Below are positions 3,588 to 23,946 of a stretch of DNA of 24,086 bases, piece after piece. Each line of letters starts with the position of its first letter. The first letter of the stretch is position 1. This stretch comes from a virus. The stretch covers positions 1-24,086 of IMG/VR virus record IMGVR_UViG_3300042465_000007; one strand, written 5' to 3'. The position numbers were made by a program, and so were the translations under genes. The notes under the pieces were generated by a model. That model did no database searches. It was not told where the DNA came from and worked only from the letters and a program-made list of their open reading frames with translations.

Positions 3588-3797
3588 ATGCACACTGATA
3601 CACAATATCTGGTAGCATTAGCCAAACAGGTCAAACGACCTAAACAGTTGCCTGTACTTTTAGGGCAGCCCCCTAAAATACAGGACAATAACCAATCAAT
3701 TGCTTTAGGGGCAATCAATGAAGACATTGAATCTTATCTGCGAAGCCAAGCTGAATCTCAACGAAAAGCACAACGCCGAACCGTCTGGACAGATTGA
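3588..3797 (+). CDS. Possible small unknown protein overlapping the protease gene
   Basis: This open frame encodes 69 residues, basic and glutamine-rich, with no family I recognise, no signal peptide and no membrane segment. For it: it fills the otherwise empty gap after the portal gene, and its last part (DIESYLRSQAESQRKAQRR) looks like a normal helical segment. Against it: no Shine-Dalgarno precedes the ATG (the upstream bases are ATATATC), it overlaps the protease by 80 nt in another frame, and a strong hairpin at 3651-3684 lies inside it. It could be a real gene, a leader ORF whose translation influences the hairpin, or non-coding sequence. Confidence 0.4.
   Translation: MHTDTQYLVALAKQVKRPKQLPVLLGQPPKIQDNNQSIALGAINEDIESYLRSQAESQRKAQRRTVWTD
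3651..3684 (+). promoter_or_regulatory. Strong RNA hairpin upstream of the prohead protease
   Basis: The left arm CCTGTACTTTTAGGG (3651-3665) pairs with the right arm CCCTAAAATACAGG (3671-3684). This gives 14 base pairs with one bulged C and the 5-nt loop CAGCC. No U-tract follows, so it is not a classical terminator. Part of the loop and right arm, CCCCTAAA (3670-3677), is also exactly complementary to TTTAGGGG (3704-3711), the segment holding the protease ribosome-binding site. Two exclusive folds are therefore possible, one leaving that site free and one masking it. The hairpin is seen directly; the switch is inference. Confidence 0.75.
3707..3711 (+). promoter_or_regulatory. Ribosome-binding site that sets the protease start
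   Basis: AGGGG lies 6 nt before the ATG at 3718 and supports that start over later in-frame codons. It sits in TTTAGGGG, which is complementary to the right side of the upstream hairpin and resembles the hairpin's left arm (CTTTTAGGGCA versus CTTTAGGGGCA). Confidence 0.7.
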
Positions 3798-4515: not shown

Positions 4516-5865
4516 ATGTCCCAAGTTATTCTCGAAAAACTGGATGCTATCGAAGCTAAACAAGCCGAAAGCATCACTGCTGTAGAAGCCAAAATCCCTG
4601 CTGCTGTTGAAGCTGTAAAAGCTGAAATGCAAGAGATGGTTTCTGCCCTAGAAGCCAAAGTTGCTTCTATTCAAATGCCTGAGTTCATTCGCACACCCGC
4701 TAAAACTGTTCGCCAAGATGTGAACCGTTCAGTGCGTGAGCAATTGCGCGAGTTCTACAAAGGCAACAACCGTTTGGAAAAAGAATTGAAAATCTTTGCA
4801 GACGAAAGCCAAATGGATGCGTACCTGAAAGAAGCTTCTGCTTTGACCGCTGGTGGTGATGGCAAGGGTGGTCGTACTGGCTACGATCCAACTTTCACGG
4901 CTCTGCGTTTGATGAACCCAATGCGCGGTCTGTCACGCACTGTGGCTACTGACGGTTCCTCGTACCAATTTCGTGTTCGCACGGGCAATCCGGGTGAAGC
5001 ATGGGGCTATGGTATTCAGAACAACGGCGCAGCCACTACTGAAGACACAAGCATCTGGCAATTGGTTTTGCAAGACTTGAACGTCCAGTTCCCAATCCGT
5101 ACTGCGGCATTGGACGACATTGATGGTTTGGAAGCTGTGGTTGTTGACGACATGCTGGCCTCCTTCAGTCAGAGTGAGGCACTTTCAATGGTGGCAAACA
5201 ATGACCAAGCTGCTCAATCGGGTACTAACCCTTACGGCGGCACTAACGGTCTGCGTGGTTTGGATCAGTACGCTGGTTCTAATGCCACTTACACTGGTGG
5301 TACAACTTCTGCTGCTGCTTTTGGCACTTCTGGTACTGGTTCTTCAAGCGGTCTGCACTCGCTGGCTACTTATGACCAACTGACTTCTAACGTCAACACT
5401 GTTGGCTTGAACAACATTGCTTACAAAGACGTTATTAACTTGGTAATGGCTTTGCCGCAGCAGTATTGGACTCCAAACGCCAAGTTCATGGTTAGCCCAA
5501 TCTTGGCTCAAGCTATCCGTGGTCTGCAAGACACCAATGGTCGTCCAATCTTCAACTCTACTGAGTCGTTGATTCCTGATGGCATCATTGGCAATATGCT
5601 TGGCTTTGATGTGGTGATGAACCGTTACTTGGACTCTCCTTTCCAAGCTACAGTGGGCGCTGCTGGCACTACTAGCCTGTACCCAATGTACTTTGCTGAT
5701 TGGAGCCGCTTCCACACAATCGTTGATCGCCTGAATATGGTCATGCGCCGCTATGACCAAACACTTCCAGGATTTATAACATTTTTTGGAGAAAAGCGTT
5801 TGGCAACATCTGTGCGTGATCCTAACGCTGGTGTGCGTTATCGCTCGACAGGTACAGCCGCCTGA
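4516..5865 (+). CDS. Major capsid protein 1, HK97 fold with N-terminal delta domain
   Basis: This 449-residue protein is the probable main shell protein. Residues 1 to about 100 form a charged helical/coiled-coil region (repeated EAK and VEAVKAEM patterns) typical of the HK97 delta scaffolding domain removed by the protease. The mature part begins near LKEASALTAGGDGKGGRTG (from 104) and continues with the MNPMRGLSR and SSYQFRVRTG elements, ending with PGFITFFGEKRLATSVRDP. The predicted mature length is about 345 residues. AAAGG (4504-4508) gives a good ribosome-binding site. Codons such as GGT, CGT, AAC and GCT are heavily used, as expected for an abundant product. An intrinsic terminator follows immediately. 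Confidence 0.95.
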   Translation: MSQVILEKLDAIEAKQAESITAVEAKIPAAVEAVKAEMQEMVSALEAKVASIQMPEFIRTPAKTVRQDVNRSVREQLREFYKGNNRLEKELKIFADESQMDAYLKEASALTAGGDGKGGRTGYDPTFTALRLMNPMRGLSRTVATDGSSYQFRVRTGNPGEAWGYGIQNNGAATTEDTSIWQLVLQDLNVQFPIRTAALDDIDGLEAVVVDDMLASFSQSEALSMVANNDQAAQSGTNPYGGTNGLRGLDQYAGSNATYTGGTTSAAAFGTSGTGSSSGLHSLATYDQLTSNVNTVGLNNIAYKDVINLVMALPQQYWTPNAKFMVSPILAQAIRGLQDTNGRPIFNSTESLIPDGIIGNMLGFDVVMNRYLDSPFQATVGAAGTTSLYPMYFADWSRFHTIVDRLNMVMRRYDQTLPGFITFFGEKRLATSVRDPNAGVRYRSTGTAA

Positions 5866-5871
5866 TAAATC

Positions 5872-5898
5872 GGAGGGGCGTAATTGCCCCTCCTTTTT
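5872..5898 (+). terminator. Intrinsic terminator between the two capsid genes
   Basis: GGAGGGGC (5872-5879) and GCCCCTCC (5886-5893) form a perfect 8-bp GC-rich stem with loop GTAATT, followed by TTTTT (5894-5898). It starts 6 nt after the stop codon of the first capsid gene. This is the only textbook Rho-independent terminator I see in the window. It probably stops a fraction of transcripts, so downstream genes would need read-through, antitermination or another promoter. Confidence 0.9.
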
Positions 5899-5921
5899 GT
5901 GCCAATAATTTAGGAACTGAT

Positions 5922-6953
5922 ATGACCATTACCGAACGCATCCTGTCTGGAATTAAGCAAACATTGGAAACTGGCGATAAAGTCACGATTGACTTGCGCG
6001 AGGCATCTGCTATCACAGGCTCTGGTAACGGGGTTGGTGGTCGTACCTTTTTTGACAACGCATTTGCTGCACTGCGTTTTGCAAACCCAATTCGTGAGAT
6101 GTCGCGTGTTATTCCTGCATCTGGCTCAAGCGTACAGTTTGTAGCCAAGACAGGTAACGCGACAAACTCAACAAACCCGTTTGGATACACGTTCACGCCT
6201 GACAGCGGTTCGCCAAACATCAACACATCTATTTGGCAATTGCCGACCCGTGTTATTACTGCTCAACTGCCTGTTCGTTCAGCGGTTATGTCGGATGTAA
6301 ACTACCTGAACGAAACTTTGGTTGAAGATTTGATGCTGGAATTTGCACAGATCGAAGGCGCTTCAATGGTTTTGAACAATGACCAAGCTGGTTCTACCAC
6401 CACAATCAACGGCGCGACAAACGGTTTGCGTGGTTTGAATATGTACACCAGTGCTGTTTCATCTGCATTTGGTACAAGTGGCACAGCAATCACCAACGGC
6501 ATTCACTCCATTGCTACATACACTCAAGCAGCAGCGGCTGTGTCGTATTCCGACATTACTGACATGACCCGTTTGTTCCCTGCTCAATACTGGAATCTTC
6601 CCGGTACTGCATGGATGATGCACCCACAAACAATTCACGAACTGCGTAACCTCGGGACGGGTGGCGCGGCAATTAGACAATTTGCTGAAACTGGCGATGA
6701 TGATGGCGGTGCTGTTGTTAATGTGTTTGGCATTCCTGTCGTTGCGAACCCAAACATCCAAACAACTGGCGCTGGTAACTTCAACATTTATTTGGCTAAC
6801 TGGCCTCGTTTTGTAAGCATTGCTGACGTTGAAGAAATGACCATTCAGGCAATGGAACAGACAAGCCCCGGCTTCATTACCCTATATGCGGAAAAGCGTC
6901 TAGTAAGTACCGTGCGTGACCCGTTTGCTGGAATCCGTTTGGTAGGTGTCTAA
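5922..6953 (+). CDS. Second HK97-fold capsid protein, paralog without delta domain
   Basis: This 343-residue protein is clearly related to the preceding capsid protein. LREASAITGSGNGVGGRTF (25-43) aligns with LKEASALTAGGDGKGGRTG; further matches are ALRFANPIREMSR, NTSIWQLPTRVITAQLPVRSA and PGFITLYAEKRLVSTVRDP. Only about 24 residues precede the first match, against 103 in the first protein, so it lacks the coiled-coil delta domain and is close to mature length as translated. It may be a minor capsid or vertex subunit, as gp24 is to gp23 in T4, or an alternative shell protein; these are inferences. AGGA at 5912-5915 is a good ribosome-binding site. It lies after a terminator and so may be made in smaller amounts. 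Confidence 0.92.
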   Translation: MTITERILSGIKQTLETGDKVTIDLREASAITGSGNGVGGRTFFDNAFAALRFANPIREMSRVIPASGSSVQFVAKTGNATNSTNPFGYTFTPDSGSPNINTSIWQLPTRVITAQLPVRSAVMSDVNYLNETLVEDLMLEFAQIEGASMVLNNDQAGSTTTINGATNGLRGLNMYTSAVSSAFGTSGTAITNGIHSIATYTQAAAAVSYSDITDMTRLFPAQYWNLPGTAWMMHPQTIHELRNLGTGGAAIRQFAETGDDDGGAVVNVFGIPVVANPNIQTTGAGNFNIYLANWPRFVSIADVEEMTIQAMEQTSPGFITLYAEKRLVSTVRDPFAGIRLVGV

Positions 6954-8430: not shown

Positions 8431-8925
8431 ATGGCTTTACCAAACAAAGTTCTTCCCGGTTTTACGGCAGCGTTGTACGCACAGCCCGGAGCCACTCCTA
8501 CTCCTTTGACAATTACACAGTTGTCCTTGGTTGCTAGTGTGGCTCCATTGGCTATTAGCGGCAATCTGATTCCTGTCGAAGCAATCCCTGCTTTCGGTCA
8601 AGATGATGCTGTGGCTAGTTTCGGCATTGCGGGTTCGCGTCAATCTGACAAGATCCCCGTTCAGGCTGCACCAACTTCCATGACCATCACTGCTGCATGG
8701 AACCCTGCTGATACCAACTTGTTGCTGATGCGTGCTGATGCTTATTCTGGCGTCATTGACCGCACTTTTATCGTTTCGGCAACCGAGGGTGCAAACATTA
8801 TTTATTACGCCTTCAACGGGCGTGTAGGCCAGTTTCAAGTGGATTCCGCACCCGGTGCAGAAGCCAAGGCTACATTTACCATCCATCCCCGTGGCAATCA
8901 GTACGGTTGGTCCAACAACGCATAA
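8431..8925 (+). CDS. Major tail (tube) protein, copy 1
   Basis: This 164-residue protein is the likely tail tube subunit, judged by its place between the tail completion and chaperone genes, its size, its all-beta character and good ribosome-binding signals (AAAGGA upstream). The C-terminal two thirds (from PVEAIPAFGQDDAVASFG) are nearly the same as the next protein. The N-terminal 50 residues differ more and this copy is 8 residues shorter. The ASFGIAGSRQSDKIPVQAAPT segment may be a tube hairpin or loop. I do not recognise a specific named family. Either copy could be the tube and the other a decoration or minor form. Confidence 0.72.
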   Translation: MALPNKVLPGFTAALYAQPGATPTPLTITQLSLVASVAPLAISGNLIPVEAIPAFGQDDAVASFGIAGSRQSDKIPVQAAPTSMTITAAWNPADTNLLLMRADAYSGVIDRTFIVSATEGANIIYYAFNGRVGQFQVDSAPGAEAKATFTIHPRGNQYGWSNNA

Positions 8926-8934
8926 GGAGTCATC

Positions 8935-9453
8935 ATGGCTATCCCTGCAAAAGTTCTTCCCGGTTTTAGCGCATCGTTGTGGATGCAATCGGCTGCAACT
9001 CCAACACCTTTGACAACCGCTAACTTGTCTGTGTGGGTTGCTCAAGTAACCACTATCGTGGGCACTTCAGCCAACGGTACAGGTGGCGCTGGTGTTGCTG
9101 TGCCTGTCGAGGCCATCCCTGCCTTTGGTCAGGATGATGCTGTAGCAAGTTTCGGTGTTGCTGGTTCGCGTCAAAGCGACAAGATTCCTGTGCAAGCGGC
9201 TCCTACAAGCATGACCATTACGGCTGCTTGGAACCCGTCTGACGCAGCCTTGTTGCAGATTCGTGCTGATGCTTACTCTGGTGTTGTTGACCGCACTTTC
9301 GTGGTTGCAGCAGTGGAAAGCACAAACACTATTGCTTATGCTTTCAACGGTCGCGTGGGTCAATTCCAAATTGATTCTGCACCGGGTGCTGAAGCCAAGT
9401 GTATGTTCACTATTCATCCACGAGGCAACCAGTACGGCTGGTCGAACAACTGA
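8935..9453 (+). CDS. Major tail (tube) protein, copy 2
   Basis: This 172-residue protein is a paralog of the gene just upstream. A by-eye alignment of the last 116 residues gives about 99 identities, roughly 85%, without gaps. Most differences lie in two patches (the NPADTNLLLM and FIVSATEGANIIYY regions in copy 1). The codons differ often even where the residues are the same, so the duplication is not recent and the protein is under selection. It has its own GGAG ribosome-binding site overlapping the previous stop. The N-terminal region has an extra Gly/Ala-rich stretch (about residues 43-54). Both copies keep a full open frame. Confidence 0.72.
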   Translation: MAIPAKVLPGFSASLWMQSAATPTPLTTANLSVWVAQVTTIVGTSANGTGGAGVAVPVEAIPAFGQDDAVASFGVAGSRQSDKIPVQAAPTSMTITAAWNPSDAALLQIRADAYSGVVDRTFVVAAVESTNTIAYAFNGRVGQFQIDSAPGAEAKCMFTIHPRGNQYGWSNN

Positions 9454-14746: not shown

Positions 14747-15193
14747 ATGATAAGACTAGCGACAAAATATGACATACCAAGATTGCTGGAAATTGTTGAA
14801 GCATATGCGTATGAAAACCCGATTAAAAAACTTGGTGACCCAAACAACCACAACGCTAAATACGTTGAGGAGCTTTTGTTTGGCATCATTAAAGGCCGTG
14901 GGTTTATCTTCATTGACAAGCATATGCGCGGCGCGATTGTGGCTTACAAATCTTCTAACATCTGGTCGCCGCAAGTAAGAGAGTTGAACGAATTGCTTTG
15001 GTGGGTAGAGCCAGAGCATAGAAACGGAACAATTGGCGGTAGGCTTTGGAAAGCGTTTGACGACCGAGCCAAAGCAATGCTTGAAGCAAATGAAGTAGAT
15101 TTTGTGTGTACATCAATTTCGGCAAATGGGCCATTTATTGATTACACACGCAGGGGCTATAAACCTCTTGGCGCAACTTTTGTGAAAGAATAA
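14747..15193 (+). CDS. GNAT-type N-acetyltransferase within the tail tip cluster
   Basis: This 148-residue protein would fold as a GNAT acetyltransferase using acetyl-CoA. Visible are the N-terminal MIRLATKYDIPRLLEIV helix, strand WWVEPEHRNGTIGGRLW (85-101), where R-N-G-T-I-G-G-R (92-99) forms the CoA pyrophosphate loop (Q/R-x-x-G-x-G/A variant), and YTRRGYKPLGATFVK (133-147), the motif B end. Length is normal. The target is unknown. It sits between the hub and J-like tip genes, where lambda has the peptidase gpK, so it may modify a tail protein or act on the host. No clear ribosome-binding site precedes the ATG; the gap is 2 nt. Confidence 0.78.
   Translation: MIRLATKYDIPRLLEIVEAYAYENPIKKLGDPNNHNAKYVEELLFGIIKGRGFIFIDKHMRGAIVAYKSSNIWSPQVRELNELLWWVEPEHRNGTIGGRLWKAFDDRAKAMLEANEVDFVCTSISANGPFIDYTRRGYKPLGATFVKE

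Positions 15194-19122: not shown

Positions 19123-19126
<4 letters not shown>
18644..19126 (+). CDS. Unknown structural protein before the collagen-like fibre
   Basis: This 160-residue protein looks beta-rich ([33 protein letters not shown]), suggesting a tail appendage or fibre-base subunit; I do not recognise a family. I choose ATG 18644 because AGGGA (18634-18638) is well placed. An earlier in-frame ATG at 18581 has no ribosome-binding site and would add 21 residues (MTRTVALPVGG...), which look less natural. If 18644 is right, 18567-18643 is an untranslated gap of 77 nt in which I see no terminator. The stop overlaps the fibre start by 4 nt. Confidence 0.62.
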
Positions 19127-20799
<1,673 letters not shown>

Positions 20800-22899: not shown

Positions 22900-23946
22900 A
22901 TGAAAATAGCTGTCTACGCCATCAGCAAAAACGAAGCGCATTTTGTCAAACGATTCTGTGCTTCAGCCAAAGATGCTGATTTAATTGTCATTGCTGACAC
23001 AGGCTCAACTGATGACACGATTCAGCAAGCAATGAATGCTGGCGCTAGAGTCTTTGAGATATGCGTAAAGCCTTGGCGATTTGATAGAGCAAGGGATGCT
23101 GCTTTGGCCTTGTTGCCGCCTGATATTGATATTTGCATTTCTCTTGACTTGGATGAAGTAATGGAGCCGGGGTGGAGAAAAGAAATTGAGCGTGTTTGGG
23201 CAACCGATACAACCAGATTGCGCTACAAATTTGACTGGAGCAATGGGGTAGTGTTTTATAGCGAGAAAATACACCATCGATATGGTTATCATTGGGTTCA
23301 CCCAATCCATGAGTACATTCGGGCCGACAACAGAATTGCTGAAGTGTACGCACATACGGATATGCTGCTTGTCAGTCACCATCCTGACGAAACAAAATCA
23401 CGCAGCCAGTATCTGCCATTGCTTGAGTTGGCGGTCAAGGAAGACCCGTACTGCCACAGAAATGCTTTTTACTACGCTAGAGAATTGACGTTTTATTCTC
23501 AGTGGAGAGAGGCCATCCCTGCGCTCAAGAAGTACCTGACAATGCCGCAAGCAAGCTGGAGCCATGAGCGATGCTACGCCATGAGGTTGTTGGGTAAGTC
23601 ACACGAAAGCCTAGGCGAGATCAAAGAGGCTGAAAAGTGGTATCAGGGGGCTTGCCTTGAAGAACCCAACACCCGTGAGCCGTGGGTGGATTACGCCATG
23701 TTCTGCTATAACACCCATGATTGGGAGACTTGCTACTTTGCAGCAACCAGAGCGTTAAAGATTAAAGAAAAGCTGGAGGTCTACACAATGGACCCTGCTG
23801 CATGGTCTGACAAGCCGCACGACTTGTGCAGCATCGCTGCTTGGCATCTAGGCCATAAAGACAAGGCAAGACAAGAGGTCGACGAGGCTTTAAAATTCAA
23901 GCCTAACGATCCTAGACTACTTGCCAATAAGGAATGGATGAAATGA
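22900..23946 (+). CDS. Glycosyltransferase family 2-like with TPR-like C-terminus
   Basis: This 348-residue protein likely transfers a sugar from a nucleotide-sugar donor. The N-terminal GT-A domain shows IAVYAISKNEAHFVKRF, the nucleotide-binding DTGSTDDT (33-40) and a DxD-type SLDLDEVME (81-89, with D83, D85 and E86 for metal binding). The C-terminal half is helical with TPR-like repeats (from about 200: YARELTFYSQWREAIPALKKYL and KSHESLGEIKEAEKWYQGACL). The target is unknown: it may glycosylate a phage structural protein or change host surface sugars. It is 2 nt after the preceding gene and overlaps the next by 4 nt, so it belongs to the late operon. Confidence 0.85.
   Translation: MKIAVYAISKNEAHFVKRFCASAKDADLIVIADTGSTDDTIQQAMNAGARVFEICVKPWRFDRARDAALALLPPDIDICISLDLDEVMEPGWRKEIERVWATDTTRLRYKFDWSNGVVFYSEKIHHRYGYHWVHPIHEYIRADNRIAEVYAHTDMLLVSHHPDETKSRSQYLPLLELAVKEDPYCHRNAFYYARELTFYSQWREAIPALKKYLTMPQASWSHERCYAMRLLGKSHESLGEIKEAEKWYQGACLEEPNTREPWVDYAMFCYNTHDWETCYFAATRALKIKEKLEVYTMDPAAWSDKPHDLCSIAAWHLGHKDKARQEVDEALKFKPNDPRLLANKEWMK

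Follow-up and report, generated by a model that had tools for sequence, protein, structure and literature searches.

A fixed pair of tandem HK97-fold capsid paralogs in a lineage of small phages, with a proposed vertex role for the subunit that lacks a delta domain

INTRODUCTION

Phages with genomes of about 40 kb, such as HK97 and P22, rely on one capsid gene product, and T4, whose two-gene arrangement has been rationalised by its large genome, is regarded as a rare exception (PMC13185644, a 2026 review). The DNA studied here, a 24,086-bp IMG/VR virus record (the window), comes from a small freshwater phage and departs from this pattern, since it carries two tandem and related capsid genes, MCP1 and MCP2. 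An original prediction made from the letters alone had called this arrangement unusual, and the review bears that out. The question raised by the locus is what such a phage does with a second capsid subunit that has no scaffold domain of its own.

RESULTS

Two tandem genes encode HK97-fold paralogs

The window encodes, in order, the small terminase, large terminase, portal, S78 prohead protease, MCP1, MCP2, connector, head-tail and tail proteins (coordinates are given in Table 1). Beyond the matches listed there, the protease scored 2.4e-7 against TIGR01543, under the cut-off of that model, and gave no match when used as a query against the PDB. A 69-aa ORF without a family match (window 3588-3797) lies in the gap between the portal and protease genes and overlaps the protease start.

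Table 1. Features of the head-gene region, in window coordinates
Feature	Position	Strand	Basis
Prohead protease, 264 aa	3718..4512	+	Pfam Peptidase_S78 5.9e-7; PHROG_3244 head maturation protease 2.2e-9
MCP1, major capsid protein with N-terminal delta (scaffold) domain, 449 aa	4516..5865	+	Pfam Phage_capsid, TIGR01554
MCP1 delta domain/propeptide, residues 1-106	4516..4833	+	Helices 2-51 and 65-82 in poor model; end set by invariant E106
Predicted MCP1 cleavage motif, L-K-E106↓A107	4825..4833	+	P1 Glu in 95/95 representatives; P3 M/L/I in 94/95
Intrinsic terminator between MCP1 and MCP2	5872..5898	+	9-bp stem, 7 GC pairs, T run
MCP2, delta-less HK97-fold capsid paralog, proposed vertex subunit, 343 aa	5922..6953	+	MCP1 homology, PHROG_10, TIGR01554, structure match
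MCP2 short propeptide (predicted), residues 1-27	5922..6002	+	Predicted helix 3-17; leader ends in aliphatic-x-E
Predicted MCP2 cleavage motif, L-R-E27↓A28	5994..6002	+	P1 Glu in 94/94 with locatable motif; P3 L/V/I/F in 93/94
MCP2 E-loop, approximately residues 66-107	6117..6242	+	Low-confidence loop before strand and long (spine) helix in model

The two capsid genes coincide exactly with the reading frames originally proposed, and BLASTP aligned their products over the mature part with 39% identity (222 bits, E=2e-73). The alignment starts at L104 in MCP1 and L25 in MCP2, in agreement with the roughly 103 and 24 residues that had been predicted ahead of the common block. MCP1 was recognised by Pfam Phage_capsid (1.7e-25, 90.4 bits), by PHROG_10 major head protein (6.9e-25) and by TIGR01554 major_cap_HK97 (2.4e-27, 96.1 bits, model positions 6-381). 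MCP2 matched PHROG_10 (1.2e-10) and TIGR01554 (2.9e-17, 62.8 bits with a cut-off of 27.5), the latter only from model position 90, indicating that the N-terminal delta region is absent from MCP2, as proposed. Pfam Phage_capsid did not match the window MCP2 but did match divergent MCP2s, at 2.4e-20 and 1.2e-19 (73.5 and 71.3 bits). By profile, MCP1 belongs to the HK97-type major capsid family (PF05065/TIGR01554), as does MCP2 through TIGR01554. MCP1 also has the delta domain of the self-scaffolding members, whereas MCP2 does not; this domain is needed only for self-scaffolding and not for membership of the HK97 fold family. A DUF4325 match of MCP2 (E=0.018) fell below the cut-off and was treated as noise.

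An AlphaFold model of MCP2, of moderate confidence (pLDDT 64.8, pTM 0.67), matched RcGTA capsid chains among the solved structures (E to 5e-13, probability 1.00) and also HK97 gp5, so that the HK97 fold, on which the original prediction depended, is retained. For MCP1 the quality of the model was too low for interpretation (pLDDT 46.6), and the fold was for this reason assigned from the family profiles. We regard it as virtually certain that MCP2 is an HK97-fold paralog.

The pair is fixed across a phage lineage

A tblastn search of 50,697 phage records returned one full-length relative, which is also the closest cultured one, Methylophilaceae phage P19250A (KX815270; 38,749 bp, circular), while scans of viral contigs and genome contigs yielded several hundred loci related to the window; a plasmid search gave no match. 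Removal of contained sequences left 386 loci, some of them possibly overlapping pieces of one contig, and the search for the pair that had been suggested at the outset found both genes at 370 of these, which rules out chance co-occurrence. The pair was intact at 366 loci and had broken frames at four (MCP2 in L130 and L318, MCP1 in L278, both genes in L302), perhaps through sequencing errors; at the remaining 16 only one gene is present and the contig ends there. No single-capsid close relative that could serve as an outgroup was found in the viral-contig scans out to 56% (MCP1) and 49% (MCP2) identity to the window.

In a tree of 95 representatives, MCP1 and MCP2 were reciprocally monophyletic (support 0.897 and 1.0), and the two proteins of any one virus shared 34-45% identity. 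Their distances were correlated (Mantel r=0.61, 0/999 permutations) and a median dN/dS of 0.13 (MCP1) and 0.16 (MCP2) indicates that both genes are under purifying selection; in close pairs MCP2 diverges faster (mean distance 0.28 versus 0.15). Tandem duplicates do occur, and the window also has tandem tail-protein paralogs, so one might ask whether MCP2 is a recent or decaying duplicate without function. The degree of divergence, the reciprocal monophyly, the low dN/dS and the near-universal intact frame already contradict this idea, to which we attach next to no probability. What can most safely be stated is that this phage lineage holds a fixed and ancient pair of HK97-fold shell proteins, the second of which has no scaffold domain and is probably cleaved at the same motif as the first.

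The counterparts in P19250A, gp5 and gp6, lie in the same gene order, share 58% and 54% identity with the window proteins and have the same cleavage-type motifs. There, gp5 is annotated as 'gene transfer agent capsid protein' and gp6 as 'hypothetical protein', and because only gp5 was annotated as a capsid protein the pair went unrecognised. Several hundred contigs thus carry a capsid gene that is called 'hypothetical' in the sole annotated relative, an annotation that should be corrected. Papers on relatives of P19250A name one capsid gene or none, and two capsid paralogs are unreported for this phage group in the literature searched, a set that did not include the original P19250A paper. The sources searched likewise yielded neither virion proteomics nor a structure for the group. 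The 'two major capsid proteins' in the JBD30 and Adjutor/Patience literature are two copies of one protein. Caulobacter phage Colossus, a phiCbK-like siphophage, does have a diverged extra copy of its major capsid gene (gp81/gp36; PMC3556154). Colossus is, however, a giant prolate phage, and its two copies, ∼21 kb apart, do not form a tandem pair present across a family.

Both paralogs carry a prohead-protease-type motif at the same point

In the original prediction, one subunit needed cleavage and the other did not. Alignment of the 95 representatives, anchored on the Glu preceding the common block, shows in both proteins an aliphatic-x-Glu motif followed by Ala or Ser, mostly Ala, exactly at the start of homology. 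The entropy of MCP2 was 0 bits at P1 compared with 1.7-3.0 bits at the positions upstream of P3. Since this invariant motif sits where that of MCP1 does, MCP2 is very probably cleaved as well, a step that would remove 27 aa in the window, and this part of the original prediction is not upheld. The prohead proteases of T4, phiKZ, 201phi2-1 and SPN3US cut C-terminal to Glu (PMC5694885), and the shared motif strongly suggests that the S78 protease, whose gene precedes theirs, cuts both MCP1 and MCP2. Conceivably, the motif instead has a role in the N-arm. The short stretch ahead of the common block (24-27 residues) would also suit a vertex or near-portal subunit that stays uncleaved, as first proposed, but we consider this improbable given that the motif is kept at the MCP1-equivalent point despite leaders of 23-42 aa. 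The leader itself starts with a predicted helix bearing a conserved I-L-x-x-I-K pattern and may act as a targeting signal.

The same motif bears on whether MCP2 enters the virion at all. An HK97 fold without a scaffold domain is also what encapsulins have, and MCP2 might be an assembly factor or form a separate small encapsulin-like shell outside the virion. Its linkage to MCP1 is complete, however, and a motif of the prohead-protease type together with a conserved position in the head operon would imply processing within proheads, which makes a role outside the virion highly improbable. From these sequence features, MCP2 is probably a minor subunit of the virion.

Sequence divergence and a predicted lower dose set MCP2 apart from MCP1

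The paralogs have diverged mostly in MCP1 residues ∼251-300 and 323-394, and share the blocks of the N-arm, spine and C terminus; in the divergent segments MCP2 has shorter loops, and the IRGLxDxxGRPI segment of MCP1 is replaced. Judging from the HK97 fold, we take these segments to be largely the A domain around the capsomer axis. Some of the T4 gene-24-bypass mutations also fall in the A-domain region (PMC9958956).

The gap between the two genes holds an intrinsic terminator. Similar hairpins, differing in sequence, were found in 126 of 132 distinct MCP1-MCP2 pairs, and under strict criteria a strong terminator was present in 70 of 95 gaps (11.6 kb), compared with 11 matches in 867 kb of flanking phage DNA. 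Such a terminator after the MCP1 gene would lead to MCP2 being made in lower amounts. Transcription of MCP1 should exceed that of MCP2, but it should equally exceed that of the entire downstream operon. Since all head-tail genes behind the terminator would be expressed less, its effect is not specific to MCP2, a point against the reading of MCP2 as a minor vertex subunit.

These data also bear on the possibility that MCP2 shares the hexamers with MCP1 or takes over part of the lattice, acting as a second major subunit or as a switch of size or shape. Both paralogs are equally fixed, the fold is the same and most N-arm, spine and C-terminal signatures are kept, all of which would fit. Divergence focused on the two segments named above is nevertheless what would be expected of a different capsomer, the conserved terminator ahead of MCP2 favours a lower dose, and the T4 precedent is a vertex-only paralog. 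We therefore hold a second major subunit to be unlikely, though with an appreciable chance.

Comparison with T4 gp23/gp24

T4 gp24 forms 11 vertices and probably derived from gp23 by duplication (PMC9958956), and the original prediction had named it as a precedent for a paralog at the vertex. The parallel is a fitting one. As in T4, the paralogs are adjacent with the major capsid gene first, and a long propeptide is followed by a short one: gp23* and gp24* lack 65 and 10 N-terminal residues, respectively (PMC9958956), and 106 and 27 are predicted to be lost in the window. In both systems a prohead protease cuts after Glu, although for the phage of the window this is predicted, and a terminator stands behind the major capsid gene, as predicted 3' of gene 23 in each member of a set of six T4-like genomes (PMC1524935).

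Two further parallels are circumstantial. The GIY-YIG gene segD lies between T4 genes 23 and 24 (PMC2988022), and in three relatives of the window a homing-endonuclease-like ORF (PHROG_314, 6e-15; below the NCBIfam cut-off) occupies the MCP1-MCP2 gap (L091 6351-6995, L092 2253-2897 and L227 3416-4000); segD is antisense to its neighbours, whereas the ORF of the relatives is on the same strand. In T4, the E-loop of the capsid proteins bears an I domain (PMC9958956), and in one subclade (the L327-L333 type, comprising L327, L328/L408, L329, L330, L332 and L333, with L409 and L411) the E-loop of MCP2, unlike that of MCP1, contains an inserted domain of ∼66 aa that resembles part of phage tail-fibre families (PHROG_38233, PHROG_21413).

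Other properties separate the two systems. T4 gp23 and gp24 share ∼20% identity, compared with 39% for MCP1 and MCP2; the genome of the cultured relative, at ∼39 kb, is far smaller than that of T4; and the scaffold of the window phage is the MCP1 delta domain and not the product of a separate scaffold gene. RcGTA (Rcc01687) and HK97 gp5 are the nearest solved structures, for MCP2 by fold and for both proteins by sequence profile. Profile searches of the PDB with either protein matched RcGTA (and, for MCP1, also a cf-PICI head protein) and recovered no T4 capsid chain, and none was present in the top 50 fold matches of MCP2. Descent from T4 gp24 thus finds no support in profiles or top fold matches, by which measures MCP2 is not a member of the gp24 family. 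Because the nearest solved relatives are RcGTA and HK97 capsids, the duplication looks independent, and on profiles and model the T4-like traits of the pair look like convergences. MCP1 has the layout of HK97 gp5, a delta domain followed by the HK97 fold. HK97 differs in that a single capsid gene makes both hexamers and pentamers, and in the window proteins the predicted cut, as a further difference, falls after Glu.

DISCUSSION

We propose that the shell of this phage is built from two HK97-fold paralogs, with MCP1 and its built-in delta scaffold making up most of it. Without a scaffold domain, MCP2 would have to be brought into a prohead that MCP1 organises, probably by means of its own short helical leader. 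The S78 protease would then cleave both proteins after aliphatic-x-Glu, and the terminator 3' of the MCP1 gene would keep the dose of MCP2 low. The likeliest site for a minor HK97-fold subunit would be the pentameric vertices, as for T4 gp24; a T=7 shell would take up 55 copies there. By this analogy, the reading we favour, with some reserve, is that MCP2 is a minor shell subunit and most likely a pentameric vertex protein working like T4 gp24; the vertex position, which the original prediction offered as one of several roles, is our best guess and somewhat more probable than not. With slightly better than even chances, a ∼40-kb lineage of the HK97/GTA type has, independently of T4, gained a vertex subunit of its own that is matured by proteolysis, converging on the T4 23/24 layout with its short leader, common protease motif, terminator, homing-gene site and, in one subclade, decorated E-loop of the second subunit.

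If this is correct, a fixed two-gene shell in a ∼39-kb lineage would be a second and apparently independent case beside T4, and a separate penton gene would not be tied to large or prolate heads. Viral contigs of this lineage are common in public data, and a bacterial host strain has been named for P19250A; the pair allows a direct test of the purpose of a vertex subunit, be it curvature, protease gating or surface display.

Other features of the window

A second structural duplication in this phage consists of tandem major-tail-protein-like genes (window 8431-8925 and 8935-9453; 72% identity, each with a weak PHROG_158 match), at the position of which P19250A has one gene of similar size. Within the tail module, window 14747-15193 encodes a GNAT-like acetyltransferase (Pfam 0.0012, just under the cut-off). 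The tail-fibre region encodes a 558-aa collagen-like protein with GPTGPTG repeats (window 19123-20799; Pfam Collagen 8e-32), and a gene 3' of the tail genes (window 22900-23946) matches the PHROG_13126 beta-1,4-glycosyltransferase at 4e-97 and contains TPR repeats.
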